From a virus, in the IMG/VR virus record IMGVR_UViG_3300007735_000607, positions 1-31,560 of that record: 31,560 nt of DNA. The stretch is one strand, 5' to 3'. Shown piece by piece: positions 5,757 through 31,560 of the stretch. The notes beneath the pieces are model-generated. The model saw only the letters and a list, made by a program, of their open reading frames with translations, did no database searches and had not been told where the DNA came from. Both the position numbers and the translations under genes were made by a program. Every line of letters begins with the position of its first letter. Position 1 is the stretch's first letter.

Positions 5757-5763
5757 GTAAATA
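5757..5763 (+). promoter_or_regulatory. Late promoter core GTAAATA placed for a leaderless start
   Basis: GTAAATA ends exactly six bases before the A of the ATG at 5769. T4 late RNA starts six bases after the final A of the core, so the transcript would begin at the start codon. The 5' part overlaps a small inverted repeat (ACCAA/TTGGT) just after the gp20 stop. Confidence 0.55.
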
Positions 5764-5768
5764 GTTTT

Positions 5769-5999
5769 ATGCAATTAAACGAGCTTTACGAACCCACTCC
5801 TGCAGGTTATCGTTCTGAAAAAGAAGATAATAGCGCATATAAAATCCAAGATAACCGCGGAAGATCTAGTCGTTTGACATTGGATAAACTAAATCGCTTA
5901 CGTATAATGAATGATACACGTAAGTTAGAACACGAAAAAAAGCTGGAAAAAGTTGCAGATCAATACAAGATTCCTGCACAAGCTGCCGCTGGTCTATAA
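5769..5999 (+). CDS. Small basic head protein in the gp67 position
   Basis: A 76-residue protein starting MQLNELYEPTPAGYRSEK, with a charged helix from about 38 to 70. In T4 the gene between portal gp20 and core gp68 encodes the gp67 prohead core protein (80 residues, acidic). This one matches in size and place but is basic rather than acidic, so it may be a functional replacement or an unrelated core protein. A longer reading from a TTG at 5754 is possible, but that codon lies upstream of the late-promoter core at 5757-5763. The ATG at 5769 coincides with the predicted transcription start. Confidence 0.6.
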   Translation: MQLNELYEPTPAGYRSEKEDNSAYKIQDNRGRSSRLTLDKLNRLRIMNDTRKLEHEKKLEKVADQYKIPAQAAAGL

Positions 6000-13419: not shown

Positions 13420-13445
13420 TCCTATAAAAACCACTTTTTTCTACT

Positions 13446-13470
13446 TTTGGTAAATAGTATTATAACCAAA
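13446..13470 (+). promoter_or_regulatory. Late promoter GTAAATA in an inverted-repeat loop (large fibre)
   Basis: The core GTAAATA (13450-13456) overlaps the 5' arm and loop of a perfect 6-bp inverted repeat (13446-13451/13465-13470). The predicted start is near 13462, about 20 bases before the ATG at 13482. No GC-rich terminator is visible between the preceding gene and this promoter. Confidence 0.65.
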
Positions 13471-13481
13471 GGTATTTCGGC

Positions 13482-16400
13482 ATGGCTATTACAAGAATTT
13501 TTAACAACCAGATCACTGACGCAACAATTACAAACGTCAAAATCGCTAGTGGAACGCTAACTGGCGATAAAATGAACAACAATTTGACGTTCAACAGTAA
13601 TCTTGTACTGAACGGAAACTTAACAGTAACAGGCAACGTTACAGCAGTTCAAAGTACAACTACACAGATCACTGATCCTTTATTAACTTTAGCTTTGGGT
13701 AACCCCGGCACATCCTATGACATGGGTGTTGTTTTAATTCGCGGATCGGGTGGTAACAGATTCATGGGATACAAAGAAAATGCCAATGCCTTTGTATTCA
13801 TTCAAACAACAGAAGATGGTCTAACTACAGGTAACATTGCTACCACAGCTTATAGTAACGTAATCTTTGGTAATGCCACAACTTTAGGTAGCACTACTTT
13901 AGGCGGATTTACAATCAGCGGAAACACACTAAGTTCTGCTGGCGCAATGACTATTCGCAGTGATGCAGGCACAGTCACTATCGCTAACACTTTGGTGGGT
14001 TCGGGCGCAGTTAACCTAGGTTCAACACTCAGCGTATTTGGCACAGCCACAGTCAACGCATTGACCAGTAACGGTGCTATCATTGGTACTACAGGTAGTT
14101 TTAGCAGTAACTTAACAGCCAGCGCATTAACTGTAAACACTAGTGCAGTAATTACAACAACACTACAGGCAGCGGGGGGTCTACAAAATACTCCAATCGG
14201 TAACGTGACACCAAGCACAGCATTGTTTACAACAGTGGGTGCAAGCGGAAACGTTACAGCTAACGCATTGACAGTAAACAACACAGCTACAATCGGTAGT
14301 ACACTAGGTGTAACAGGTAACATCAACGGAAATAGCGCAACACTAACAGGCAGTATAGTTACTACAGGTCCAGGTCAACACATAGGTGGACTACAAGCAA
14401 CGCCAATTGGTAATGCCACAGCAAGTACAGGTCAATTCACCACAGTAAGTGCCACAGGAAATATTACAGGCGCCGCATTAACCAGTAACGGCTCTATTAC
14501 CGCAGTAACCACAATCAGTGGTTTGGGCGGATTACAAGCAACACCAATTGGTAACGTAACACCAAGCAGTGGTTTATTTACAAACATTGGTACTAGCGGT
14601 AACGCTACTGTTAGCGCACTAACAGTAAATAACAGCGCCACAGTCGGTACAACATTGGGTGTAACTGGTAACGCAACTATTGGTAATGTCAGCACAGCAG
14701 CCATAGGAGCCAGTGGCATTGTTACTATCACTAATACTACAGACGCTACAGGTACTAGTTCTGGTGCATTGCAAGTATCAGGTGGCGCAAGTATTAATAA
14801 AAACTTGTACGTTGTTGGTAATATCTATGCTGGTAACATTATTGCTATTCAAGCAAACACATTGTCTGTTCAAGATCCGTTGTTATACTTGACTGCTAAC
14901 AGTGTATTCCCATACAACTACAGTATCGGTTTCTTCAGTCAGTATCAAGGTGGTACTGTTGCCAACGCTAATGCCAACATTTATCAACACACAGGTTTTG
15001 TAAGAGATAACACAGATGCAGTTTGGAAATTATTCAGTAACGTTGTTGCTGAACCTGGTATTACAGTAGACTTTACTAATGCACTATATGATGCAATTCG
15101 TGTAGGCAATACCACAGTAAGTGGAACTTTAAATGTTTCTGGAGCCACAACATATTCAGGTAATATCACTGTTAATGGTTTAACAGTTAATACCAGTGCG
15201 GTGATAGGTACTACATTACAGGCCGCAGGCGGTATACAAGCAACTCCAATCGGAAATGCCACAGCAAGTTCGGGTCAGTTTACTACAGTAAGTGCTACAG
15301 GTAATATAACTGGTGCTGGATTGACTAGTAATGGCTCAATTACAGCGGCAACAACTCTAAGTGCCGCTGGCGGCATACAAGCTACCCCGATTGGTAATGT
15401 AACACCAAGCAGTGGTCAGTTCACAACATTGAACGCCACTGGTAATGCCACAGTTGGTAACCTTAGTACCACAAATATAAATGCTACAAATGGTACATTT
15501 ACAAATAATGTATCAGTACAAGGAACATTAACAGCAACCAGCAACGTTGTTGCTAATACATCGGGTATTTTTTACGGAAATTCAATTACTGGTAATGGAG
15601 CTATATTTGCAGGTGTTCCTGGATTTACCAGTTTGGGCACTAACGTAGTAGTTCAATTCTCCGGCAATGTGAATTCTTATAGTCAAATTAACTTTGAAAA
15701 TACCAATAGTGGCAATTTGGCTAGTACAGACTATATTGCTACAGCGGACAACGGCACTGACAGTACATTCTTTGCTGACTTTGGTATTGCTAGTAGCACC
15801 CATAACGATCCTACATTCTTTGGTGACAGTGGGTCGTTCAATGATGCATATTTGTATGTGGTAGCCAACGGTGTTACCAGCGGCAGTACCAGTCGAGGTA
15901 ATTTGATATTAGGTTCCACTAACGGGGTCGTTAAAACTTTTGTTGGCAATACTGCACAATCAAGTGTAATCACTACACACAATGCAAGCCAATTTGCAGT
16001 TAACGTATCCACAGCATCAACAGGTTCTACTACTGGTGCCTTAGTAGTTAACGGCGGCGTAGGTGTAGCAGGAACATTAAACGTACAAACTGCGGCAAAC
16101 TTAGGTAACGTTACATTTAACAATACTACAATCAGCAGTAACGTTACAAACACAGGCCTAACAATTAATCCTAATGGCACAGGTACAACTACATTTAACA
16201 GCGGTCTAAACAACAGCAGAACTGTTATTCAAGGCACAACAGCTAACACATTTGTTGTCACAGGTTCACAGATTGGTGTCAATACAGCAACACCAACATC
16301 TGGCACGGTAGTAGACTTTAATACTAATAGCAGTATTATGCTACCAAAAGGTACTACAGCGGCAAGACCTGGTACTCCTGTGGCAGGTATGTTCCGTTTC

Positions 16401-17615
16401 AGTACAACACAGAACTTGCCAGAATGGTACGACGGTACTGCATGGGCTGTGCCTAGCACAAACTTTACTATTGTAACTGCTAATACTCAGACGGGTAATG
16501 GTAGTGCAACATCATTTACTATACCAGTAGCTAATGCTACAACAGCTGGAACCATGGTAAGTATCAACGGTGTGGTACAGGAACCTACCAGTGCTTATAG
16601 TATCAGCGGCAACGTAGTTACATTTACAGAAGCTCCTGCAAGTACAGATAGAATTGATTTCCGTGTATTCGTTACTACTACACAGGTTACAACTATCACA
16701 GACGCCGCAGGTACAACAGGCTTGTTCTATGACTTGCCTTCTGCCGGCAGTCAGATTACTACATTTAGAACTGCTGGCAGTGAATCGTTCAGTATTCAAG
16801 CTAACAGCGAAGCTAGATTTACTGGTAACGTAGTGCCAGGCGCTAACGTAACTTATAGTCTAGGGTCTAATACACGTCGTTGGAAAGATTTGTGGTTAAC
16901 CGGTACAACATTGTACATGGGTAATATTGTAATCAAAGAAACAGCAGGTAATACTATTGCTTTCTATGGCCCAGACGGTTCCACTCCAGCAACATTAAGT
17001 GCTAACGGCAGCTCATTGGTTGGGGTTGATGCTACAAGTATTACTTCGGGAACAAGTAACGTTAAAGTTTATTCTAGTTCAAATATTGCTGTCACTGTAG
17101 CAGGCACTGCCAACACAGTAGTGTTTAGTTCAACAGCTTTAACACACAGCGGTAGTATTTTACCAACTGCCAATGGAACTGCTAACATTGGTAGCACAGT
17201 ATTACAATATAACACAGTTCATGCCAAAGCAACTTCAGCACAATACGCTGACTTGGCAGAAAATTATTCCTCAGATGCCGTATATGAGCCAGGCACAGTG
17301 TTACATTTTGGTGGCTCGGCTGAAGTTACAGTATGCACTGAAGATATGTGCAGACGTGTAGCCGGCGTAGTTACAACCAATCCAGCTTACTTGATGAACA
17401 GCGGATTAACAGGAACAGTGGCCGCAATCGCACTACAAGGTCGTGTACCATGTCGAGTAACAGGCACAGTACGCAAAGGAGACATGATGGTCAGCGCAGG
17501 AAATGGCTTGGCCAGAGCTGAAGCAGATCCTACAGTGGGTAGCGTAATTGGTAAGTCATTACAGGATTTTGACGGGGATCGAGGTGTTATCGAAGTAGTT
17601 GTTGGAAGATTCTAA
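13482..17615 (+). CDS. Large tail fibre protein with shared C-terminal domain
   Basis: At 1377 residues this is the largest protein in the window. The N-terminus MAITRIFNNQITDATITNVKIASGTLTG is of the type seen in T4-like marine fibres. A shaft of imperfect repeats follows. The unit with TPIGN-x-T-x-S-x-x-x-FT occurs five times between about residues 235 and 660, each followed by glycine/threonine/alanine-rich strands. The RPGTPVAGMFRFSTTQNLPEWYDGTAW module lies at about 964-990 and the NGVVQEPTSAYSISGN module at about 1027-1042. RRWKDLWLTG (about 1128) precedes a C-terminal domain from about 1240 (TSAQYADLAENY...GVIEVVVGRF) that is nearly the same as in the next gene. That domain may be a folding or receptor-binding head; resemblance to self-cleaving chaperone domains is only suspected. 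Confidence 0.85.
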   Translation: MAITRIFNNQITDATITNVKIASGTLTGDKMNNNLTFNSNLVLNGNLTVTGNVTAVQSTTTQITDPLLTLALGNPGTSYDMGVVLIRGSGGNRFMGYKENANAFVFIQTTEDGLTTGNIATTAYSNVIFGNATTLGSTTLGGFTISGNTLSSAGAMTIRSDAGTVTIANTLVGSGAVNLGSTLSVFGTATVNALTSNGAIIGTTGSFSSNLTASALTVNTSAVITTTLQAAGGLQNTPIGNVTPSTALFTTVGASGNVTANALTVNNTATIGSTLGVTGNINGNSATLTGSIVTTGPGQHIGGLQATPIGNATASTGQFTTVSATGNITGAALTSNGSITAVTTISGLGGLQATPIGNVTPSSGLFTNIGTSGNATVSALTVNNSATVGTTLGVTGNATIGNVSTAAIGASGIVTITNTTDATGTSSGALQVSGGASINKNLYVVGNIYAGNIIAIQANTLSVQDPLLYLTANSVFPYNYSIGFFSQYQGGTVANANANIYQHTGFVRDNTDAVWKLFSNVVAEPGITVDFTNALYDAIRVGNTTVSGTLNVSGATTYSGNITVNGLTVNTSAVIGTTLQAAGGIQATPIGNATASSGQFTTVSATGNITGAGLTSNGSITAATTLSAAGGIQATPIGNVTPSSGQFTTLNATGNATVGNLSTTNINATNGTFTNNVSVQGTLTATSNVVANTSGIFYGNSITGNGAIFAGVPGFTSLGTNVVVQFSGNVNSYSQINFENTNSGNLASTDYIATADNGTDSTFFADFGIASSTHNDPTFFGDSGSFNDAYLYVVANGVTSGSTSRGNLILGSTNGVVKTFVGNTAQSSVITTHNASQFAVNVSTASTGSTTGALVVNGGVGVAGTLNVQTAANLGNVTFNNTTISSNVTNTGLTINPNGTGTTTFNSGLNNSRTVIQGTTANTFVVTGSQIGVNTATPTSGTVVDFNTNSSIMLPKGTTAARPGTPVAGMFRFSTTQNLPEWYDGTAWAVPSTNFTIVTANTQTGNGSATSFTIPVANATTAGTMVSINGVVQEPTSAYSISGNVVTFTEAPASTDRIDFRVFVTTTQVTTITDAAGTTGLFYDLPSAGSQITTFRTAGSESFSIQANSEARFTGNVVPGANVTYSLGSNTRRWKDLWLTGTTLYMGNIVIKETAGNTIAFYGPDGSTPATLSANGSSLVGVDATSITSGTSNVKVYSSSNIAVTVAGTANTVVFSSTALTHSGSILPTANGTANIGSTVLQYNTVHAKATSAQYADLAENYSSDAVYEPGTVLHFGGSAEVTVCTEDMCRRVAGVVTTNPAYLMNSGLTGTVAAIALQGRVPCRVTGTVRKGDMMVSAGNGLARAEADPTVGSVIGKSLQDFDGDRGVIEVVVGRF
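14170..15470 (+). repeat. Imperfect repeats inside the large fibre gene
   Basis: Five DNA copies of a unit encoding TPIGN-[VA]-T-[PA]-S begin near 14190, 14398, 14538, 15238 and 15379. The flanking sequence is also similar; copies two and four both run on into the SGQFTTVSATGNITG segment. Between copies, the spacing alternates and a distinct domain (about 14850-15110) interrupts the run. A sixth copy lies in the neighbouring gene near 18430. Confidence 0.8.
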
Positions 17616-21763: not shown

Positions 21764-23142
21764 TAGTTATCTGCTTTCGGTGTTAATGCCTTGCTTAGAC
21801 TTTGTCTAGTAGGTAATGTCTGGCCTTCAACGTTAGTGAATGTGCTGGAGTCATTGACAAATCTACTGCGCTGTGTCTGATTGTTTGGTCCTGGTGTCAG
21901 GTTAGTTCTTACGTTGTCTTCAATCTTTGTCCAGCGACGCCCGTCAAATCTGAAAAGCCTATTAGGCATATAGTCTGTGCGTAATACATAATCCCCAACG
22001 TTTGCTTGCCCAGGGAAGCTAGTACTAACAGTAACAGGCCATCCATTGGGTGTTGTTCCGTCGCCGCCCAAGTACGCAGGTATAGTAGTGTCCGGGGTAA
22101 CTACACCAGAATCCGCCAATGGAATAAACGTGCTATCTACACGTATGCTGGTATCGTCTACTCGTGTGCCTATAGGGTCACCTGGGTTGCCTAAGCTGGC
22201 GATGGGCTCTACGTAAAGCACATCGGTGTCGTAGCCGCTTTTGGGAACATCTACTTCTGCCTGCGCGATTACAGCATCATTGATTTGATTTAATAAATCG
22301 AAGTTAGTCATGAACTGTCCGATAGGCGTATCGTTGCTGTCGCTGGCCGCAATGTTATTTAGAATGTCTTTGTATTCTTGACTGTTAACCAAGGGAGTGG
22401 CTTTGATTCTAAGTAAGTGTGGCCACCAAGTTTGACTAAAACCTTCTGCGGCAAATGTAACATCCTGTATTACATAAAAGCGTTTTAATGCCGCAGGTAA
22501 GTCTGCGTTTAATGGATAGTAATCTTTTTTGTGTTGCAGTTCAATGACATCACCGCTCATTAATTTCCTGCCAACGGATGCTAGTGTATCATTTAAATGA
22601 AAAGTCAGCACAATGGTGTCCGAGCTCATCATCAAACCAAATTGGCTCAGATCCCAGTCATTGTCGTTGACCGTATAGATACCGCGCAGTACATAAACAC
22701 TGGTATCATATTTTCTATCTCTGTTTTCTAAGAACAGTAGATCCTGGATGTTTAATAAACTTTGATTGGTATAGTTGGGTTGACTGGGTTGATTCCAGTA
22801 AATGTTTACGGGTTGCCCACTGCTGATAGCGGAAGTAACGTTACTGGTCAATGTAATCGAGTTGGCACTTACGTTAGTACTGAAAATAGCAGTATTGCTA
22901 GCAATACCAATACCAGACACAGACTGACCCACTTCAAAAGTACTGACGTTAGCAAAGTATAGTGTCCTGGTATTGGCACTAGTATTGCTGGTAGTGACGT
23001 AAGCATTGGCCTGTGCTGTGGGGCCGAGATATTTGTGCAATAAAATGCCAGTACCGCCGATAGTGAATGTTTCACTGATTCGCTGGTCAAAAAATTTGTA
23101 ATCATTAGTGTGGTTGTCACGCCACATGCTTAGTCTTGGCAT
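21763..23142 (-). CDS. gp14: Neck protein gp14
   Basis: Connector/neck protein that seals the filled head and joins it to the tail (459 residues with the chosen start; T4 gp14 is 256). Core features are the N-terminal FFDQRISETFTIGGTGILLHKYLG (17-40), a conserved segment with LENRDRKYDTSVYVLRGIY (about 138-156), and GDVIELQHKKDYYPLN. A beta module interrupts at about 47-118. The C-terminal 130 residues include GWPVTVSTSFPGQANVGDYVLRTDYMPNRLFRFDGRRWTKIE. A longer frame begins at 23250, but the late-promoter core at 23162-23168 lies inside it, so the ATG at 23142 (MPRLSMW) is the likely start. It is translationally coupled to gp15. Confidence 0.83.
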   Translation of the reverse strand: MPRLSMWRDNHTNDYKFFDQRISETFTIGGTGILLHKYLGPTAQANAYVTTSNTSANTRTLYFANVSTFEVGQSVSGIGIASNTAIFSTNVSANSITLTSNVTSAISSGQPVNIYWNQPSQPNYTNQSLLNIQDLLFLENRDRKYDTSVYVLRGIYTVNDNDWDLSQFGLMMSSDTIVLTFHLNDTLASVGRKLMSGDVIELQHKKDYYPLNADLPAALKRFYVIQDVTFAAEGFSQTWWPHLLRIKATPLVNSQEYKDILNNIAASDSNDTPIGQFMTNFDLLNQINDAVIAQAEVDVPKSGYDTDVLYVEPIASLGNPGDPIGTRVDDTSIRVDSTFIPLADSGVVTPDTTIPAYLGGDGTTPNGWPVTVSTSFPGQANVGDYVLRTDYMPNRLFRFDGRRWTKIEDNVRTNLTPGPNNQTQRSRFVNDSSTFTNVEGQTLPTRQSLSKALTPKADN

Positions 23143-23161
23143 ACTAGGTTCCGATAATATG

Positions 23162-23168
23162 TATTTAT
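23162..23168 (-). promoter_or_regulatory. Late promoter core ATAAATA, minus strand (gp14 operon)
   Basis: ATAAATA on the minus strand ends 20 bases before the gp14 ATG at 23142. It stands back to back with a plus-strand sigma70 promoter whose -35 starts at 23173. Confidence 0.7.
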
Positions 23169-23172
23169 GGGT

Positions 23173-23201
23173 TTGACAATTAATGATTTTGGTTATATAA
23201 T
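23173..23201 (+). promoter_or_regulatory. Consensus sigma70 promoter P1, start at the ATG
   Basis: Perfect TTGACA (23173-23178), 17-base spacer and perfect TATAAT (23196-23201). The predicted start (seven bases after TATAAT) is 23208, one base before the ATG at 23209, so the mRNA would be leaderless. Confidence 0.85.
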
Positions 23202-23208
23202 ACACAGT

Positions 23209-23481
23209 ATGTTTGACACTCATGCCCAAAATCACGAAAAGGTAAAGCAATGTTTTACACAGCTTCAGTCCATGGATATAGTGGCCAAAAGTAAAATGTT
23301 CAAGTTTTACAGAAATGTCGGCAAAAAATGGGAAGAAATGGACAAAGAATTTGTAAACTGTAGACGTAGTCGTCGTGTAACACCAAAGTACACAGATTTA
23401 GAATCAGAGCTCAATGACTGTATACGAACTTTTGAGCAGTACAGCATCATAGCCACATTGATGTATGCCTTTGACAAATAA
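23209..23481 (+). CDS. Small hypothetical early protein A
   Basis: A 90-residue charged, mostly helical protein with no motif that I recognise. It contains KMFKFYRNVGKKWEEMDKEF (about 31-50), a basic patch CRRSRRVTPKY (about 52-62) and a helical end. An open frame extends upstream to 23167, but the sigma70 -10 box lies inside that extension, so the ATG at 23209 is chosen. No ribosome binding site exists between promoter and start. It is the first gene of a plus-strand island set between the minus-strand gp14 and the plus-strand gp13. Function unknown; early timing is inferred from the promoter. Confidence 0.6.
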   Translation: MFDTHAQNHEKVKQCFTQLQSMDIVAKSKMFKFYRNVGKKWEEMDKEFVNCRRSRRVTPKYTDLESELNDCIRTFEQYSIIATLMYAFDK

Positions 23482-23499
23482 TCAATTTGGTTGTATAAT
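23471..23499 (+). promoter_or_regulatory. Consensus sigma70 promoter P2, start at the ATG
   Basis: Perfect TTGACA (23471-23476), 17-base spacer and TATAAT (23494-23499). The predicted start is 23506, the A of the next ATG. The -35 box lies within the last codons of protein A. The spacer matches that of P1 at 13 of 17 positions. Confidence 0.85.
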
Positions 23500-23505
23500 T
23501 ACACA

Positions 23506-23748
23506 ATGTATAAGTTAATCAACAAATCAGGAGCAGAGCTCGACGGGTTTCCTACGCTGGCGTCTGCGTTGCAGGCCGCTAAGGCTGTGGAAATTTTTGT
23601 AACAATCCAGGGGCCTGAAAATTTTGAAGTTTGTGGGATTTTTGGGGTCGACAGCGTTAAAAATGGTAGATGTCCCGACGGAGTAGAGTACGACTGGAAT
23701 AAATCCTCACGCATCGGCCGTGTTCGAAAGGAATATCTCAATGACTAA
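23506..23748 (+). CDS. Small hypothetical early protein B
   Basis: An 80-residue protein (MYKLINKSGAELDGFPTLASA...) with an alternating strand-helix-strand pattern: KLINKSG at 3-9, the helix SALQAAKAVE near 20-29, FVTIQGPENFEVCGIFGV near 31-48, and a charged end. A compact alpha/beta domain is likely. I recognise no family. The frame could start upstream at a TTG at 23491, but that lies inside the promoter. It ends inside the start of protein C (8-base overlap). Leaderless expression from P2 is predicted. Confidence 0.6.
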   Translation: MYKLINKSGAELDGFPTLASALQAAKAVEIFVTIQGPENFEVCGIFGVDSVKNGRCPDGVEYDWNKSSRIGRVRKEYLND

Positions 23749-23971
23749 AGATTATTTGGGCAGGGAGCTGGCAGTAGACGATCACGTGATTTATATGTCA
23801 CAGAGTTATCGCAGACTGCGCCTAGCTAGAATTTATGCTTTTACGTCGACCGGTAAGCCCAGAATTCGGTGGGGCGACAAGGACTGGCAAACACTGCTAC
23901 AAACAGGCGACCAGCTAGTAAAAGTTGAAGGGCCCGAGCTCACTTATTTTCTACTAAATCAAAAGGATTAA
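23741..23971 (+). CDS. Small SH3-like-barrel hypothetical protein C
   Basis: A 76-residue protein with short strands: VDDHVIYMSQSYRRLRLARIYAFTSTGKPRIRWGD (about 12-46) follows the pattern of small SH3-barrel or KOW-like phage proteins. A GTG at 23720 would give a longer reading, but an AAAGGA ribosome binding site at 23727-23732 points to the ATG at 23741. It overlaps protein B by eight bases and is followed three bases later by the next gene, so it is probably transcribed from P2. Function unknown. Confidence 0.6.
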   Translation: MTKDYLGRELAVDDHVIYMSQSYRRLRLARIYAFTSTGKPRIRWGDKDWQTLLQTGDQLVKVEGPELTYFLLNQKD

Positions 23972-23974
23972 ACA

Positions 23975-25132
23975 ATGGCCACAGTTGCAGGTATTAAGAT
24001 TAAAACCAAAGCGCCTCGCGCCGCCCGTGTCGCGTTTGCTGACGAAAAGTATACAGGCAGTGAGCCCGATTGGCCCGCCGAATCCGCAGACTGGGATAAC
24101 GAGAAATTCGATAACCGTTTGCGCAAAAGTTTCTATTACTACAATTATTACTACAGTCAAAAGGACTGTAAAAAGTATGTGGTAGAGTGGCTACAAAAGA
24201 ACAGCAAACTCAGCACAGAAGAAGTCAAAGCATTTAATCGTGCCGGCGATCGACTACTGCCCATGACTGTTTGCAGTCTTATTATGGCACATCGCAATGG
24301 TATGCCTTTCCGGGGCCGCCACATTGAGTTCATTATCGAAAGTGTGCAGGATGTTATTAGCAAAGCAGAGCCCGAGGAAGTAGAAATCATTGCTACCCCT
24401 GAACAGGCGGCATACAAGCCCACTATTCAGGATCGGTTGGCTGAACGTACCAGCGAACTGCTGGGAGAGCTTGAAGGACACTACGACGAAATTGATACTA
24501 GCACCGTAAAGTTCTATGACTTTTTAGTGGCAAATAACGTGGTACAAAGCCAGCTAGGAAAGTACGAAACACTGTTTGGTAACAGAAAAGCAGAGTTGGA
24601 ACTTGCACAAAGCAAGAAAGACGATCAAGTCAAAGAAGGTTACAGCCACCTTAAGACAGCAGATTTTAAGAAGCGTATTAAGTGGATCGACGATTTACTG
24701 GCCGCTGTTGAGCAGTATCGCGGAGTTAAAAAGGCAACAAAGAAAGCTCGTGTTAAAAAGGCGCCCAGCAAGGAAAAGTTGGTTGCTAAACTTAAATACG
24801 CAAAAACTGATGCAGGACTTAAAATTGTGTCAATCAATCCCGCAGACATTATTGGATCCAGCGAACTGTGGATATACAATATCAAAACTCGTAAGCTGGG
24901 CAAGTATGTAGCCGCAAGCTATCAAACACTGGGCATTAAAGGAACTAGCATTACAGGCTTTGATGTCGACAAATCTGTAAGCAAAACCCTGCGCAAGCCC
25001 GACGAAAAGTTAAAAGAGTTTGCTAAAGCAGGTAAAGTACAGCTACGCAAGTTCCTGGAAGATATTCGCGCCACAGAAGCTCGATTAAACGGGCGTATAA
25101 GCACAGACATTGTGCTACTCAAAGTAGCCTAA
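23975..25132 (+). CDS. Conserved T4-like hypothetical protein
   Basis: A 385-residue, largely helical basic protein. The N-terminal part has WDNEKFDNRLRKSFYYYNYYYSQKDCKKYVVEWLQ (about 41-75), a pattern I associate with conserved unnamed proteins of T4-like marine phages. The central part (about 135-250) is charged helix, a lysine-rich segment KKATKKARVKKAPSKEK covers about 250-266, and a beta-rich end (about 280-385) contains SELWIYNIKTRKLGKYVAA. Lysine richness suggests nucleic-acid binding, which is inference. AAAGGA precedes the ATG. It is the last gene of the probable early island, ending just before the terminator at 25140. Confidence 0.65.
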   Translation: MATVAGIKIKTKAPRAARVAFADEKYTGSEPDWPAESADWDNEKFDNRLRKSFYYYNYYYSQKDCKKYVVEWLQKNSKLSTEEVKAFNRAGDRLLPMTVCSLIMAHRNGMPFRGRHIEFIIESVQDVISKAEPEEVEIIATPEQAAYKPTIQDRLAERTSELLGELEGHYDEIDTSTVKFYDFLVANNVVQSQLGKYETLFGNRKAELELAQSKKDDQVKEGYSHLKTADFKKRIKWIDDLLAAVEQYRGVKKATKKARVKKAPSKEKLVAKLKYAKTDAGLKIVSINPADIIGSSELWIYNIKTRKLGKYVAASYQTLGIKGTSITGFDVDKSVSKTLRKPDEKLKEFAKAGKVQLRKFLEDIRATEARLNGRISTDIVLLKVA

Positions 25133-25139
25133 CTGAACT

Positions 25140-25176
25140 AGTCCTATTAGCTAAATATGGTTAATAGGACTTTTTT
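25140..25176 (+). terminator. Terminator hairpin with an embedded late promoter and RBS (gp13)
   Basis: A perfect 10-bp stem (25140-25149/25162-25171) is followed by a run of six T. The loop holds the late core CTAAATA (25151-25157), and the 3' arm holds AGGA (25166-25169), the only ribosome binding site for the gp13 ATG at 25179. It ends the early island transcript and starts gp13. Confidence 0.85.
25151..25157 (+). promoter_or_regulatory. Late promoter core CTAAATA (gp13)
   Basis: The core lies in the terminator loop. The predicted start at 25163 falls in the 3' arm, so a late transcript lacks the 5' arm and cannot form the hairpin. Confidence 0.7.
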
Positions 25177-25178
25177 AT

Positions 25179-26348
25179 ATGGCTGACAACACAGTAATCC
25201 AACCCGACCTTAAAGGCGATTTTAGTATCAGGACCCAAAACCTAGGTGGTCCCGGTCCAATTAGCCAAGCCAGTGCAATAGCGGCAAACCCGCAAATTCA
25301 AACACTTAATCAACTACGCAACGACATGGTTGATTATATTCGTTTGCGTTTGGGTGATCAAATTGTTGATGTTGAATTAGACAAAGAACACTATGACCTT
25401 GCTATTAAACAAGCATTGACCAAATACAGACAAAAAGCACAGAACGCAGTGGAAGAAAGCTATGCGTTTTTGGACTTGATGCCTAATGTACAAGAATACA
25501 TATTGCCAAACTATATTATGGAAGTGCGCCAAATCTTTCGTAGGGGTATTGGTAGTGTGTCAGGAACAACAGCCAGTCAATTTGAACCATTTGCATCGGG
25601 TTATTTGAACACTTACATGTTGGTAGCAGGACGTGTGGGTGGGTTAACAAACTACGAACTTTTCACACAGTATCAAGAATTAGCCATGACCATGTTTGGC
25701 GGTTACATGAACTACACTTGGAATCGTGTAACTAAAAAGCTCACACTTGTGCGTAAAATTCCTTACGATAATTGGCAAGATATTCAACTAAACGCACTTA
25801 CTGCCAGTGGTACTACGCCTGGTAGTACTATTACTATTACACTAATTAAAGCACCACAGCAAACTATATATGTTGGCGATAGCGTATACTTGACCAACAC
25901 CGGTGTATCGGGATATGACAGCGAATATAGAGTTGTTAGCGTAAACAACACACAAACAATTTATACCGTGACAGCTAATCAAACTTTGGGTGCGGCCAGT
26001 GTAACAAGTCCTAAATTAGAAAAAGCACTGTTCCGCGTTCCGGATTATAATCCAGAGACTAACAACATGGAAAGCGTTTTGCTTTGGATTTATAACTACA
26101 AACCCGACAGTATGTTACTCAGCGATCCTCAGGTTTACCCATGGTTACAGGAATACGCATTGGCGTTCTGTAAAAGTATTCTAGGACAAGCTCGAGGCAA
26201 GTTTAGTACTATTGCTGGTCCACAAGGCGCAGGCCAGTTAAACGGTGCGGCTTTACTGGCAGAAGCTCAAACCGAAATGGAAAAATTGGAAGAAGATCTA
26301 AAAACTTATGTTGACGGGTCACAACCGTTGACATGGGTCATTGGATAA
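25179..26348 (+). CDS. gp13: Neck protein gp13
   Basis: Neck/connector protein that closes the packaged head with gp14 (389 residues; T4 gp13 is 309). Family features: LRLGDQIVDVELDKEHYDLAIKQALTKYRQ (about 56-85), AVEESYAFL, YILPNYIMEVRQIFRRGIG (about 107-125), and the C-terminal LQEYALAFCKSILGQARGKFSTIAGPQG...LNGAALLAEAQTEMEKLEEDL. A beta-rich stretch at about 205-285 (TITLIKAPQQTIYVGDSVYLTNTG...) looks inserted and resembles the module in gp14 and gp15. The gene is read from a late promoter inside the terminator of the preceding unit. Its last codons carry the -35 box of the kinase promoter. Confidence 0.9.
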   Translation: MADNTVIQPDLKGDFSIRTQNLGGPGPISQASAIAANPQIQTLNQLRNDMVDYIRLRLGDQIVDVELDKEHYDLAIKQALTKYRQKAQNAVEESYAFLDLMPNVQEYILPNYIMEVRQIFRRGIGSVSGTTASQFEPFASGYLNTYMLVAGRVGGLTNYELFTQYQELAMTMFGGYMNYTWNRVTKKLTLVRKIPYDNWQDIQLNALTASGTTPGSTITITLIKAPQQTIYVGDSVYLTNTGVSGYDSEYRVVSVNNTQTIYTVTANQTLGAASVTSPKLEKALFRVPDYNPETNNMESVLLWIYNYKPDSMLLSDPQVYPWLQEYALAFCKSILGQARGKFSTIAGPQGAGQLNGAALLAEAQTEMEKLEEDLKTYVDGSQPLTWVIG

Positions 26349-26356
26349 TGTAAAAT
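26328..26356 (+). promoter_or_regulatory. Near-consensus sigma70 promoter of the kinase gene
   Basis: TTGACA (26328-26333), 17-base spacer and TAAAAT (26351-26356, one mismatch). The predicted start at 26363 lies near the top of the 5' arm of the terminator hairpin at 26357-26376. Confidence 0.65.
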
Positions 26357-26380
26357 AAGGACTCTTAGGAGTCCTTTTTT
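26357..26380 (+). terminator. Terminator hairpin whose 3' arm contains the kinase RBS
   Basis: An 8-bp stem (26357-26364/26369-26376, loop TTAG) is followed by a T run that reaches the ATG at 26381. AGGAG (26367-26371) overlaps the loop and 3' arm and is the kinase ribosome binding site. The hairpin ends the gp13 transcript. Confidence 0.85.
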
Positions 26381-26992
26381 ATGATTATAGGCATTTGTGG
26401 TTTGATTGGCGCCGGCAAAGATACTGCCGCAGATTATTTGGTTAACTTTCATGAATTCAAAAGGGAAAGCTACGCGGGAACTCTTAAAGACGCTGTGGCC
26501 GCAGTATTCGGCTGGGACAGGGAACTGTTAGAAGGAAGAACTAAAGCGGCCCGCGAATGGCGGGAACAAATCGATCCATGGTGGAGTCAGCGTTTAGATA
26601 TGCCTAATTTGACCCCCAGACTTACTCTACAGCTTTGGGGCACAGAAGTTTGTAGAAAATCATTTCACGACGATATTTGGATTGCTAGTGTAGAAAATAA
26701 ACTGCGCACAACCAAAGATCATGTAGTAATCAGTGACTGTAGGTTTCCCAACGAAATTGCCAGCATACGTAGAGCCGGCGGCAGAATAATTAGAATAGTC
26801 AGGGGCCCTGATCCAGAATGGTACAACATCGCAGAGTCTGCTAACCGAGGCGATAAAAAAGCACGTGAATGGTTGGGACTTAATGGAATTCACGCCAGCG
26901 AATTCAGCTGGGCTGGCACTGAGTTTGACATGATCATAGACAACAACGGTTCAGTTGAAGATCTCTACGCACAGCTTAAAAATCTGGTGTAA
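26381..26992 (+). CDS. gp1: Deoxynucleoside monophosphate kinase (T4 gp1-like)
   Basis: A 203-residue P-loop kinase (T4 gp1 is 241 residues) that phosphorylates dNMPs to supply phage DNA synthesis. The Walker A motif GLIGAGKDT is at 7-15. YAGTLKDAVAAVFGWDRELLEG (about 31-52), LTLQLWGTEVCRKSFHDDIWI (about 81-101) and VVISDCRFPNE (about 115-125) match the T4-type dNMP kinase family. No late promoter precedes it; a sigma70-like promoter does, fitting an early or middle metabolic gene set within late genes. Its 3' end overlaps the convergent 26976-27323 gene by 17 bases. Confidence 0.9.
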   Translation: MIIGICGLIGAGKDTAADYLVNFHEFKRESYAGTLKDAVAAVFGWDRELLEGRTKAAREWREQIDPWWSQRLDMPNLTPRLTLQLWGTEVCRKSFHDDIWIASVENKLRTTKDHVVISDCRFPNEIASIRRAGGRIIRIVRGPDPEWYNIAESANRGDKKAREWLGLNGIHASEFSWAGTEFDMIIDNNGSVEDLYAQLKNLV

Positions 26993-27323
26993 GTGGACCT
27001 TCTCGCCATGGCAATTTAGAATTGCTGATTTCCACTCTACAGTTTAGACATACAGTCTTTAAATTCAAAGTAGAAGTGTTTTTAAGATTGCCGTCTACGT
27101 GATATACCGTCATTTGTTTTTCTAAATACTTCGCTCTGTAGCCACATTTCTCGCAGATCTGTTTTTTCCTATATCCTGCTTTGAACCACGGCGGCGGAAT
27201 AGGTTTTAGTTTTTTACCTTGCCTGTTGCAACTATTACAAATTTTTCTGTATCGTGTCTTTCCGTTGCTGATATAATTTACAGCAACTGGGTTTTGATTA
27301 CAAATAGGACAAACGGATCTCAT
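26976..27323 (-). CDS. Zinc-ribbon HNH-like protein
   Basis: A 115-residue protein with four C-x2-C pairs (C5/C8, C29/C32, C57/C60, C92/C95). YHVDGNLKNTSTLNLKTVCLNC (74-95) follows the pattern of HNH nucleases (H-x-DG-N-x-x-N...NL-x-x-LC). Near-identical layouts (VCDKCGF..., YHIDGNLNN..., LPWRAG) are conserved in T4-like marine phages with unknown role. A nuclease or a DNA-binding zinc protein are both possible. The frame begins at 27377, but the ATG at 27323 (MRSVCPIC) gives the usual N-terminus. A late-like CTAAGTA (27332-27338) lies nine bases upstream. Confidence 0.7.
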   Translation of the reverse strand: MRSVCPICNQNPVAVNYISNGKTRYRKICNSCNRQGKKLKPIPPPWFKAGYRKKQICEKCGYRAKYLEKQMTVYHVDGNLKNTSTLNLKTVCLNCRVEISNSKLPWREGPLTPDF

Positions 27324-27382
27324 AGCAATAATACTTAGTCTTTCGAAAGGCACACCAAACAGCTTATATTTTATCACTTTCG

Positions 27383-27389
27383 ATAAATA
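27383..27389 (+). promoter_or_regulatory. Late promoter core ATAAATA (gp18-gp19)
   Basis: ATAAATA lies 29 bases before the gp18 ATG at 27418 and sits in the short palindrome GATA-AA-TATC. The leader has GAGGAAG as ribosome binding site. Confidence 0.75.
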
Positions 27390-27417
27390 TCTTTATAGAT
27401 TTATGAGGAAGTGAAAC

Positions 27418-30400
27418 ATGGCATTAGTTTCTCCAGGCGTACAAGTCACAGTTATTGATCAAAGCAATTATGCACCTACAGCAGTAGGCAGCGTTGCTTA
27501 TGTTCTTTTAGCTACCGCACAAGATAAAGTGGCTCCGGGTGGTACTGCAATAGCATCAGGCACATTAGTAGAAAATGCAGGCAAAGTATATAATATTACT
27601 AGTCAGCGAGATTTAGTTACTACATTTGGAACTCCAAGATTTAGTACAACAGCTGGTGGCTCACCAATCAACGGTGACGAACAAAATGAATATGGTTTGT
27701 TGGCAGCTTATAGTGCATTGGGTGTCAGCAATACTATGTATATTCAGAGAGCTAACATTGATTTGGCTAGCTTGACGGGCACAACTACAAGACCATTGGC
27801 AAACCCCGATAACGGAAGTTATTGGTTAGACACAGCAACTACCAATTGGGGTATCTACGAATGGGATGCTAGTACACAGAGTTTTAATCAAAAGTCAGTG
27901 TCCGTGATTATAAGTAGCACGGATGTAGTTGGATCGGCTCCAAATGTGGCCTACGGTGCTATTGGAGATTATGCAGTAAACACTTTAATTACCAGCGGAA
28001 TTTATCCAACTAACCCAATATTCCAGAAACGCTATGATAATACTTGGCAGCTGGTTGGCAATGTCGGCTGGCAACAAGGTATTCCTACAATTACAGGTAG
28101 CGTTCAAAGTCCAATAATTAGTGCAAATTCTAATATTACTATAAACGGTACGAACGTTACAGTAGCAATTAGTTCAAACGTTACTACCGTTAATGCCGCA
28201 ATTAATTCTGCAAGTATTACCGGTGTTACCGCCAGAGTAAGTGCAGCCGGTCAACTTATTATCACAGCTACCCAGTCAGCCACAAACGGAGCAGTAGCAA
28301 TCAGCAACGGTAATAATACACCTTTAACAGATCTTGGTATTACCGCAGGCACTTATCTAGGCGCCGCAACTAAAGCAGATCCTTATTTTACAATTCCTGA
28401 TTGGCAAAGTGCTAACTTGGCCGCTAATATCGGTCGTCCAACAGGTTCTGTATGGCAAAAAGCCAGTGCATTAGGTAATGGCTTAAATGTTGTTATCAAA
28501 GAATTTAACGCTTCAACTGGTGGTTGGGATGTTAAAACAGTGCCAGACTATAAGTCTATTCCTGCCGCAAGCTATGGACTAGATCCTACAGGCGGTGGCC
28601 TAAATATACCTGAAGGTACCCTTGTATCTACTTACAACTTTAGTAATGGAAACAACGGAATTTTTGCAGATGTACTACAAAGAAGAAAAGTTGCAGGACC
28701 TTTGGTAATCACAGGTGCCACAACAACTCCGACCGCGGCCAATGTTGGTGCTAGTTTTACATTAGCAACCAGACCATCGACCACAAGTGCAAATACTACA
28801 ACATACACCGTTACAATTAGTACTGCAACAGTTAATGGTTTTATTAGCGCAGTTTCTGCCGCAAATATCCCTGACGTAACAGCTAGTTTGGATAGCACTG
28901 GCGCAGTGGTATTAACACACGAATTAGGCGGGGATGTGTTCTTAGTGGACGGCGCAGGAACTCCATTGGCCAACGTTGGTATCACAACATCGGCTACTAA
29001 TGTTTATGCAAGTCCAGTAACTGGTGATGCTACATTAATTGGTTCCAATTTTGAACCGTTAATTGTACAGGGATATAGTGTTGGACCTAGCCAGCCATTT
29101 GTTGCACCCGACAATGATACACTTTGGTATTATAATACACCAAGTCGTGTTGATATTTTAGTCAACACCGGAACTAGATGGGCGGGCTACGGAAACGTTG
29201 CCGCAGACATACGCGGTTACAATCTTACAAACACAAACAGCACAGGTCCTATCATTAGTCCGACTGCACCAACCCGACAAGATGACGGAACAAGTCTTGT
29301 TTATGGTGATCTTTGGCTAGATACCAGTGATTTAGAAAATTACCCTAAGTTATCAAGATGGCAAACAGTGTCTGGAATTGATCAATGGGTGTTAATCAGC
29401 AATACTGACACAGTAAGTCAGAACGGTATTATATTTGCAGATGCACGTTGGGCTACCAGCGGAACAGTAGATCCAGCACTGGATACTATTCCAACTATTA
29501 GCGTACTACGTCAAAGCAATTACGTCGACTTAGACGCTCCAGATCCTACTTTATATCCACGTGGTATCTTGTTGTTTAACACAAGAGCAAGTGGCTATAA
29601 TGTAAAACAATACAAGAGTAACTATTTTACTAGTGCCGCATATCCTAACGAAACACTGCCTGCAGAACAGGCTGCGTGGATCACTGTCAGCGGTTACAGC
29701 GAAACAGGCCTACCAAACTTTGGCAGAAAAGCACAGCGCGGTGTAGTAGTCAGTGCTCTTAAGAGTGCTATCGATAGTAGCACAGCACTACGCGAAGATC
29801 AAAATGTATTCAACTTGATCTGCTGCCCTGGTTACCCAGAACTTATACCAAACATGGTAGCACTAAATTCTGACAAAGATAACACAGCATTTGTGGTAGG
29901 AGATACTCCGCTACGTTTGTCTGCAACAGGAACAGCTATCCAGAATTGGGCTAACAACTCAGAGGGCTCTTCACAGACAGGGGAAACAGGATTGAATACT
30001 GTAAGCCCATATGTAGGCATGTACTATCCAAACGGACAAACAAATGACTTGAACGGTAACAATGTAGTTGTTCCAGCAAGTCACGCTGTATTGCGTAGTA
30101 TAATTAAGAGTGACAGCATTGCTTTCCCCTGGTTAGCACCTGCAGGCACACGTCGCGGCTTAATTGATAATTTAAGTGCAGTTGGCTACATCGACCAAGC
30201 CAGCGGACAATTTATTAATATTGGTGTAACACAAGGCCTTCGTGACGTTATGTACACTAATAAAATTAATCCGTTAACAAACTTACCGGGTACAGGATTG
30301 GTTATATACGGTCAAAAAACTCTAAGCGAAACACCTAGTGCATTAGATAGAGTTAACGTAGCAAGATTAGTTAACTACATTAGAAGTCAACTTAACATAC

Positions 30401-31370: not shown

Positions 31371-31377
31371 ATAAATA
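31371..31377 (+). promoter_or_regulatory. Late promoter core ATAAATA placed for a leaderless start
   Basis: ATAAATA ends exactly six bases before the A of the ATG at 31383, so predicted transcription and translation starts coincide. It sits in the palindrome AATA-AA-TATT. Confidence 0.6.
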
Positions 31378-31382
31378 TTTGT

Positions 31383-31560
31383 ATGGCCTCACTATACAAC
31401 GCAGATCTAAAACCCATTGGTAAGGGTGTAAAAACACATCCTTACGACCACGCCACAAAACTGTTCTTGGCCGACAATTATAGACTGGCACCTAAACAAT
31501 CATTTTTGTTCTATGTAGTAATGAATGTTAATACTACAGCATTTGACAGTATCAGTAGCG
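31383..31560 (+). CDS. Start of a tail protein, cut by the window end
   Basis: Fifty-nine codons are visible from the ATG at 31383. The N-terminus reads MASLYNADLKPIGKGVKTH and then HATKLFLADNYRLAPKQSFLFYVVMNVN, similar in style to tube-like proteins encoded next to gp19 in marine T4-like phages. A second tube-type protein or a tube-baseplate adaptor (gp48/gp54 role) are both possible; too little is visible to decide. It follows a terminator and has its own late promoter, with no leader for a ribosome binding site. Confidence 0.6.
   Translation, partial: MASLYNADLKPIGKGVKTHPYDHATKLFLADNYRLAPKQSFLFYVVMNVNTTAFDSISS

Follow-up and report, generated by a model that had tools for sequence, protein, structure and literature searches.

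In bacteriophage T4, genes e (lysozyme), soc and 49 carry a late promoter within a leader hairpin that masks the Shine-Dalgarno (SD) sequence (PMC3014915). The long early RNA of gene e folds and is poorly translated, its long form being repressed about 100-fold, while the late RNA is produced without the 5' strand of the helix (PMC3014915). In the leaders of I-TevI, I-TevII, I-TevIII, segB and Aeh1 mobE, a hairpin masks the ribosome-binding site (RBS) in early or middle RNA, and the late RNA lacks the arm (PMC2988022). A T4-like late promoter, ATAAATA, has also been described before structural genes of the Rak2-like phages CBB and GAP32, together with a gp55-like sigma factor (PMC5259590). No report of a promoter-in-hairpin switch in jumbo phages was found in the open-access literature; the leader described here, which precedes an essential virion neck gene, has the sequence hallmarks of one.

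The DNA that was analysed (31,560 nucleotides, hereafter the window) belongs to a T4-type jumbo phage, of which it is a 31.6-kb fragment. The portal protein gp20, the major head protein, a gp13-type neck protein, a deoxynucleoside monophosphate (dNMP) kinase, and the sheath and tube proteins were recognised in it; judged by gp13, its closest named phages are jumbo phages, among them Atu_ph07, XaC1, GAP32 and CBB. Open reading frame (ORF) starts were called mechanically, except in a few named phages. The gp13-type neck protein (head-tail adaptor Ad2; PHROG 211, E 3e-29) is encoded on the plus strand at 25179..26348; proteins annotated as neck proteins in Rak2-like phages are among its matches. 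Named neck proteins align to it in two pieces only, and its middle (25806-26000, about residues 210-269) resembles the PF12195 beta-barrel domain weakly, below cut-off; the protein likely carries an inserted domain in this region. Directly upstream, in an adjacency that is conserved, lies a plus-strand gene of PHROG 11903 (23975..25132). The initial annotation spoke of an "early island" upstream, a wording that is justified by two same-strand sigma70 (early) promoters upstream of gp13, TTGACA-17-TATAAT at 23173..23201 and a second at 23471..23499, both of which match the consensus at 12 of 12 positions. Between these promoters and 25140 the sequence holds no strong plus-strand terminator, and early or middle transcription could, at this level, read into gp13 from upstream. 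Among relatives with enough upstream DNA, 55 of 64 distinct cases have a sigma70 promoter (at least 10/12) upstream of gp13.

The gap between the early-island gene and gp13 measures 46 bases and contains AGTCCTATTA GCTAAATATGGT TAATAGGACT TTTTT ATATG; from 25140, the direct reading is AGTCCTATTAGCTAAATATGGTTAATAGGACTTTTTTATATGG. Here AGTCCTATTA (25140-25149) pairs with TAATAGGACT (25162-25171) through 10 bp, all perfect Watson-Crick, exactly to the base where the initial annotation had placed the stem. Folding predicts four further pairs (25150-25153 with 25158-25161, G-U included), which extend the helix to 14 bp with an AAUA loop and give a 5' arm at 25140..25153 and a 3' arm at 25158..25171, both on the plus strand and both backed by sequence, RNA folding and covariation. 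Between the arms lies TAAATA (25152..25157, plus strand), the -10 core of a T4-type late promoter, as part of a TATAAATA-like CTAAATA (25151-25157); the leading TA of the T4 late consensus GCTAAATA is missing. The earlier placement of CTAAATA in the loop is correct with respect to the 10-bp arms, but the four predicted pairs above them divide the motif between the upper stem and the loop. The gp13 SD, AGGA (25166..25169, plus strand), lies in the 3' arm, as had been proposed, nine bases before the ATG at 25179, and the 14 pairs are followed by six T (25171..25176, plus strand), in a pattern that resembles the tail of an intrinsic terminator. The hairpin is well beyond chance: the RNA of 25120-25200 folds at -26.4 kcal/mol (z -5.33), a value equalled by none of 200 shuffles. 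An Rfam search of 23000-27600 returned nothing above the gathering score, the sub-threshold Atu_C8 (E 0.14) being at chance level. By T4 spacing, late transcription is predicted to start at 25163 on the plus strand, six bases past TAAATA, and the spacing peak of TAAATA-N5-ATG discussed below lends this position indirect support.

An RNA starting at 25163 would be deprived of the 5' arm, and the computed cost of opening the RBS falls from 18.8 kcal/mol in read-through RNA to 1.7; across relatives the medians are 18.1 and 2.1 kcal/mol, all of these costs being thermodynamic predictions. The 14-bp stem over AGGA, its opening cost and its covariation all indicate that the longer transcript sequesters the SD in its helix. 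For the start site, the termination and the translational repression, we infer the following course. Early RNA from the promoters at 23173 and 23471 would cross the early gene (23975-25132) toward gp13 and fold the 14-bp hairpin at 25140-25171, which, together with the U-run, would end much of the early RNA in this phage, while any read-through RNA would have the gp13 SD locked in the 3' arm and would yield no gp13. At late times, the TAAATA between the arms would be used by RNA polymerase carrying a gp55-type late sigma factor, and the resulting RNA would begin near 25163, lack the 5' arm, expose AGGA and be translated. A gp55-type late sigma is encoded by a 338-kb relative, G001 (PHROG 12791, E 4e-64). 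That the gp13 leader is an RBS gated by the transcription start site is, in our judgment, highly probable.

Conservation was examined in 225 IMG/VR loci, which reduce to 75 distinct gp13 leaders with 55-84% amino acid identity. TAAATA is present in all 75, invariably between the arms where arms exist, and a strong arm-arm duplex is found in 69; over all 75, the mean duplex energy is -19.5 kcal/mol for a leader's own arms versus -11.4 when arms are swapped between relatives. The arms themselves have diverged extensively and still pair (GTCCTGTTAG/TTAACAGGAC; ACCCCGATAAC/GTTATCGGGGT; ATCCTATACAGG/CTGTATAGGAT; GTCCTACGAT/ATCGTAGGAC). Compensatory changes, which had been proposed as a means to check the stem, are abundant: in a 37-row alignment, both sides have altered in 10 of 14 pairs, 43 cells are compensated versus 13.4 +- 3.2 in shuffles (0 of 500 reaching that number), and the covariation score is 0.275, versus at most 0.116 for slid structures. 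Relatives keep AGGA, GGGA or GGGG as SD, mostly 7-9 nt from the ATG, and in every one of them the predicted late leader is 12-17 nt long. A fixed pattern, TAAATA-N9-AGGAC, sought in seven contigs, retrieved one unrelated site only; it is a poor probe, and not evidence, because the spacing is off by one in most relatives. The invariance of TAAATA between the arms, the covariation, the short leaders and the computed accessibility thus lend strong support to the logic suggested initially, in which the SD is masked in early RNA and free in late RNA.

Relatives without the pairing, which the initial annotation would have taken as evidence against the switch, do occur: six stemless leaders represent two changes on the gp13 tree, in which the stem was either lost or replaced. 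On one branch (L174 and L180) an extra short-chain-dehydrogenase-like gene (L174 1720-2406, at the same place in L180) stands between the early gene and gp13, beside the loss of the switch hairpin; the leader is unstructured, and a tRNA sought in this interval was found in neither. On the other (L122-L124, in records shared with L078, L066 and L073), there is a smaller hairpin whose 5' arm is the late -10 itself (AAATATGG...CCATATTT), with a predicted opening cost of 6.7-10.9 kcal/mol in read-through RNA versus 1.2-3.3 in late RNA. A strict scan had hinted that stemless lineages lost the early promoter; this was discarded, as L123, L077 and L078 keep TATAAT and a weak -35 before the early gene. 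Since the pairing was lost on two branches, the stem appears to be advantageous, and not indispensable.

In the more distant XaC1, GAP32 and Muenster, whose gp13 is about 36-40% identical, strong leader hairpins (-22 to -26 kcal/mol) have CTAAATA in or beside the 5' arm and the SD in the 3' arm, in a layout unlike that of the window, so that the device was either kept while its sequence was rebuilt or arose more than once. No strong hairpin was present at the gp13 leader of Atu_ph07, a Vibrio phage or PA5oct. The arrangement also recurs genome-wide, at further late genes, which the initial annotation missed. Among 137 late leaders of the window group, 21 form duplexes at or below -12 kcal/mol, versus 7.3 upon arm swapping (maximum 16 in 2000 permutations); this set pools orthologues from related contigs, uncorrected for kinship, and single genomes were tested free of such pooling. 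G001 has 11 duplexes at -12 versus 3.5; at -10, XaC1 has 23 versus 12.6 and GAP32 21 versus 13.7; T4 has 15 versus 8.5, with gene e and I-TevII among the matches. Muenster is not significant genome-wide at that cut-off, and weak overall (P 0.03-0.11). Late genes freed by at least 5 kcal/mol at the late +1 amount to 28% in G001 (controls 6%), 31% in XaC1 (3%), 20% in GAP32 (4%), 32% in T4 (7%) and 8% in Muenster (4%). The 11 late genes of the window, taken as a set, show no difference from controls (P 0.49), being too few to reveal one. Most late genes have no strong hairpin; promoter-straddling hairpins are commoner than chance in the late genes of the window group, XaC1, GAP32 and T4.

Within the window, weaker plus-strand straddling hairpins are seen at the late promoter of the tail sheath (27374..27417; TAAATA 27384-27389, ATG 27418) and before ORF 13482-17615 (13442..13481; TAAATA 13451-13456). 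Sheath leaders pair better with their own arms (-8.05) than with swapped ones (-6.72); they were dropped as strong switches, the predicted unlocking being small (median 6.8 to 4.3 kcal/mol). On the minus strand of G001, strong straddling hairpins were noted at TAAATA 24026 (L083), 180157 (L091) and 334027 (L098), and GATACCCCCAAGGTGC-TAAATA-CCTTGGGGGTATTTTTATG is an example from a late gene of this genome. It is also of interest that a gene of about 177-186 amino acids, present in three jumbo phages (TAAATA at XaC1 270476, GAP32 235878 and Muenster 262178, in record coordinates), has its late promoter between the arms of a terminator-like hairpin, the SD in the 3' arm and a U-run before the ATG.

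The presence of a U-run raises the question of whether the hairpin could be a plain intrinsic terminator of the early gene, with the SD in the 3' arm merely for want of space. The window does combine a GC-containing stem with a run of six T, and U-runs of at least four are found in 55% of gp13 leaders; in the larger genomes examined, the share among other late leaders is 4-15%, and among the T4 late leaders scanned it is nil. This enrichment indicates that termination is probably real where the run is present. However, only 39 of the 69 stem-bearing leaders have such a run, and in L057, L080 and L189 the helix continues through the spacer to near the ATG in its place, so that termination is not the conserved function. 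Furthermore, a terminator would not account for a promoter that always lies between the arms, and the straddling hairpins of T4 and of XaC1/GAP32 mostly lack U-runs. We therefore consider a plain terminator improbable. The "real terminator" that the initial annotation saw fused to the switch is a good pattern in the window, and does not extend to the 30 stem-bearing relatives devoid of a U-run; from sequence comparison, the conserved core appears to be SD masking, to which termination is added as an optional, lineage-dependent layer.

Two further explanations place the function of the repeat elsewhere. It could act as DNA, serving the late promoter as a binding site for a regulator or as a cruciform, with RNA pairing incidental. 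In some relatives it does flank the -10 core symmetrically, and in T4 the late promoter of I-TevI is covered by an operator to which I-TevI itself binds (PMC2988022). Yet pairing and SD persist in arms that diverge freely, G-U pairs are common, and in XaC1 and GAP32 the promoter is found inside the 5' arm and not in the loop, with no common DNA motif; this makes such a role very improbable, and the least credible of the alternatives. Only marginally more credible is an element of RNA processing or stability, such as a site where double-strand-specific cleavage of read-through RNA would free or protect the gp13 message: stems of 14-20 bp could be cut, but cleavage requires neither a promoter between the arms nor the fixed start-to-ATG distance of 12-17 nt. 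SD masking released by the late start remains the reading that we favour.

A mirrored form of the device, also missed initially, is found at the next gene, which encodes the dNMP kinase (26381..26992, plus strand) and is presumed to be early. Its sigma70 promoter (TTGACA-17-TAAAAT, 26328..26356, plus strand, 11/12) overlaps the 3' end of gp13 and abuts a hairpin, AAGGACTC-TTAG-GAGTCCTT (26357..26376, plus strand), which contains the SD AGGAG (26367-26371, plus strand), followed by U6 and the ATG. A predicted early start at about 26363 drops the 5' arm and lowers the RBS opening cost from 15.6 to 3.4 kcal/mol. A sigma70 promoter combined with an SD leader occurs in 48 distinct dNMP kinase leaders, and 38 of these are predicted to be unlocked by at least 5 kcal/mol. 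These hairpins are quite diverse in sequence (GCCCCGTAAGGGGC, GCTCCTAACGGGGC, AGCAACTCACGCAGGAGTTGTT, AATATAAGCTTACGGAGTTTATATT), and own arms give -9.1 versus -5.9 when swapped (P < 1/2000). Such a hairpin would keep late read-through from gp13 untranslated, in a reversal of the T4 case; no description of this early-promoter form was found in the open-access literature. Between the dNMP kinase and tail sheath genes, the minus strand holds an ORF (26976-27377) that resembles an HNH-type endonuclease by its cysteine/histidine pattern, judged by eye, and is possibly mobile.

The late motif also occurs in a second configuration. TAAATA is scarce in the window (23 sites versus 36.5 expected), most of its plus-strand sites being just before ORFs, and in related genomes it lies 15-30 bases before an ATG in 100 cases, versus 18-88 for control hexamers, the highest-scoring of which overlap the motif itself. 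TAAATA-N5-ATG is strongly over-represented, with 20 cases versus 0-3 for non-overlapping control hexamers (and 9 more at N7), and a late start with T4 spacing would coincide with the ATG at this distance. Examples are found in the window (31372-31383 and 5758-5769), in related contigs G001-G004 (L082-L115) and, in five contigs, at the gene after the tail tube (MASLYNAD...); XaC1, GAP32, Muenster and T4 have at most a few. Leaderless late mRNAs are thus probable in the window group, judging from these spacings. Leaderless early mRNAs are likewise probable: a sigma70 -10 followed by exactly six bases and ATG occurs 13 times in the window group and once in three Rak2-like genomes, and in the window the -10 lies six or seven bases from the ATG at 23494-23506 (TATAAT-N6-ATG) and 23196-23209. 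More than a dozen dNMP kinase leaders have their ATG exactly six bases past the -10 (leaderless-type leaders include L141, L143, L161, L188, L191, L194 and L262), so that relatives alternate between the leaderless type and the hairpin-gated SD type at this gene.

It is tempting to suggest that, in the window group, translation generally depends on a transcript having begun at the promoter of the gene itself, whether early or late, by means of two interchangeable devices: SD hairpins that straddle the start (late at gp13, sigma70 at the dNMP kinase), and leaderless starts in which the promoter sets +1 at the ATG. Read-through RNA, early or late, would then be silent. This generalization is tentative, and our assessment of it leans slightly toward doubt. 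Were it to hold, one strand could carry early and late genes intermingled with no need for strict terminators. If the gp13 reading is true, the timing of phage proteins would be set by the position of a promoter relative to leader structure, in addition to promoter class, and annotating such hairpins as simple terminators overlooks half of their function.

Every defining sequence-level feature of the T4 e/soc/49 logic that was tested was encountered at gp13, in agreement with the likeness drawn initially. As in T4 gene e, a T4-type late promoter lies upstream of the SD, within the region that encodes the 5' strand; as in the I-Tev leaders, a hairpin covers the RBS, and the late promoter is placed so that late RNA drops an arm. 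The I-Tev leaders serve selfish endonuclease genes, and no fused terminator has been described for them, whereas the gene here is structural. The work on CBB and GAP32 (PMC5259590) reported the same promoter, with promoters and terminators listed separately and the hairpin unmentioned. With Rho-independent terminators the window shares a GC-rich stem base followed by six U, whereas relatives often have the stem without the U-run. In contrast to T4 gene e, the gene concerned is an essential one for the virion neck, its leader is kept, with extensive covariation, across a whole jumbo-phage group, and an intrinsic terminator tail is added in about half of the relatives. A widespread group of jumbo phages has deeply kept, at one of its essential virion genes, a control device of which T4 offers a handful of examples; the jumbo-phage form differs from this precedent in target gene, in depth of conservation, in the terminator fused to it in many members, and in its sigma70 mirror.
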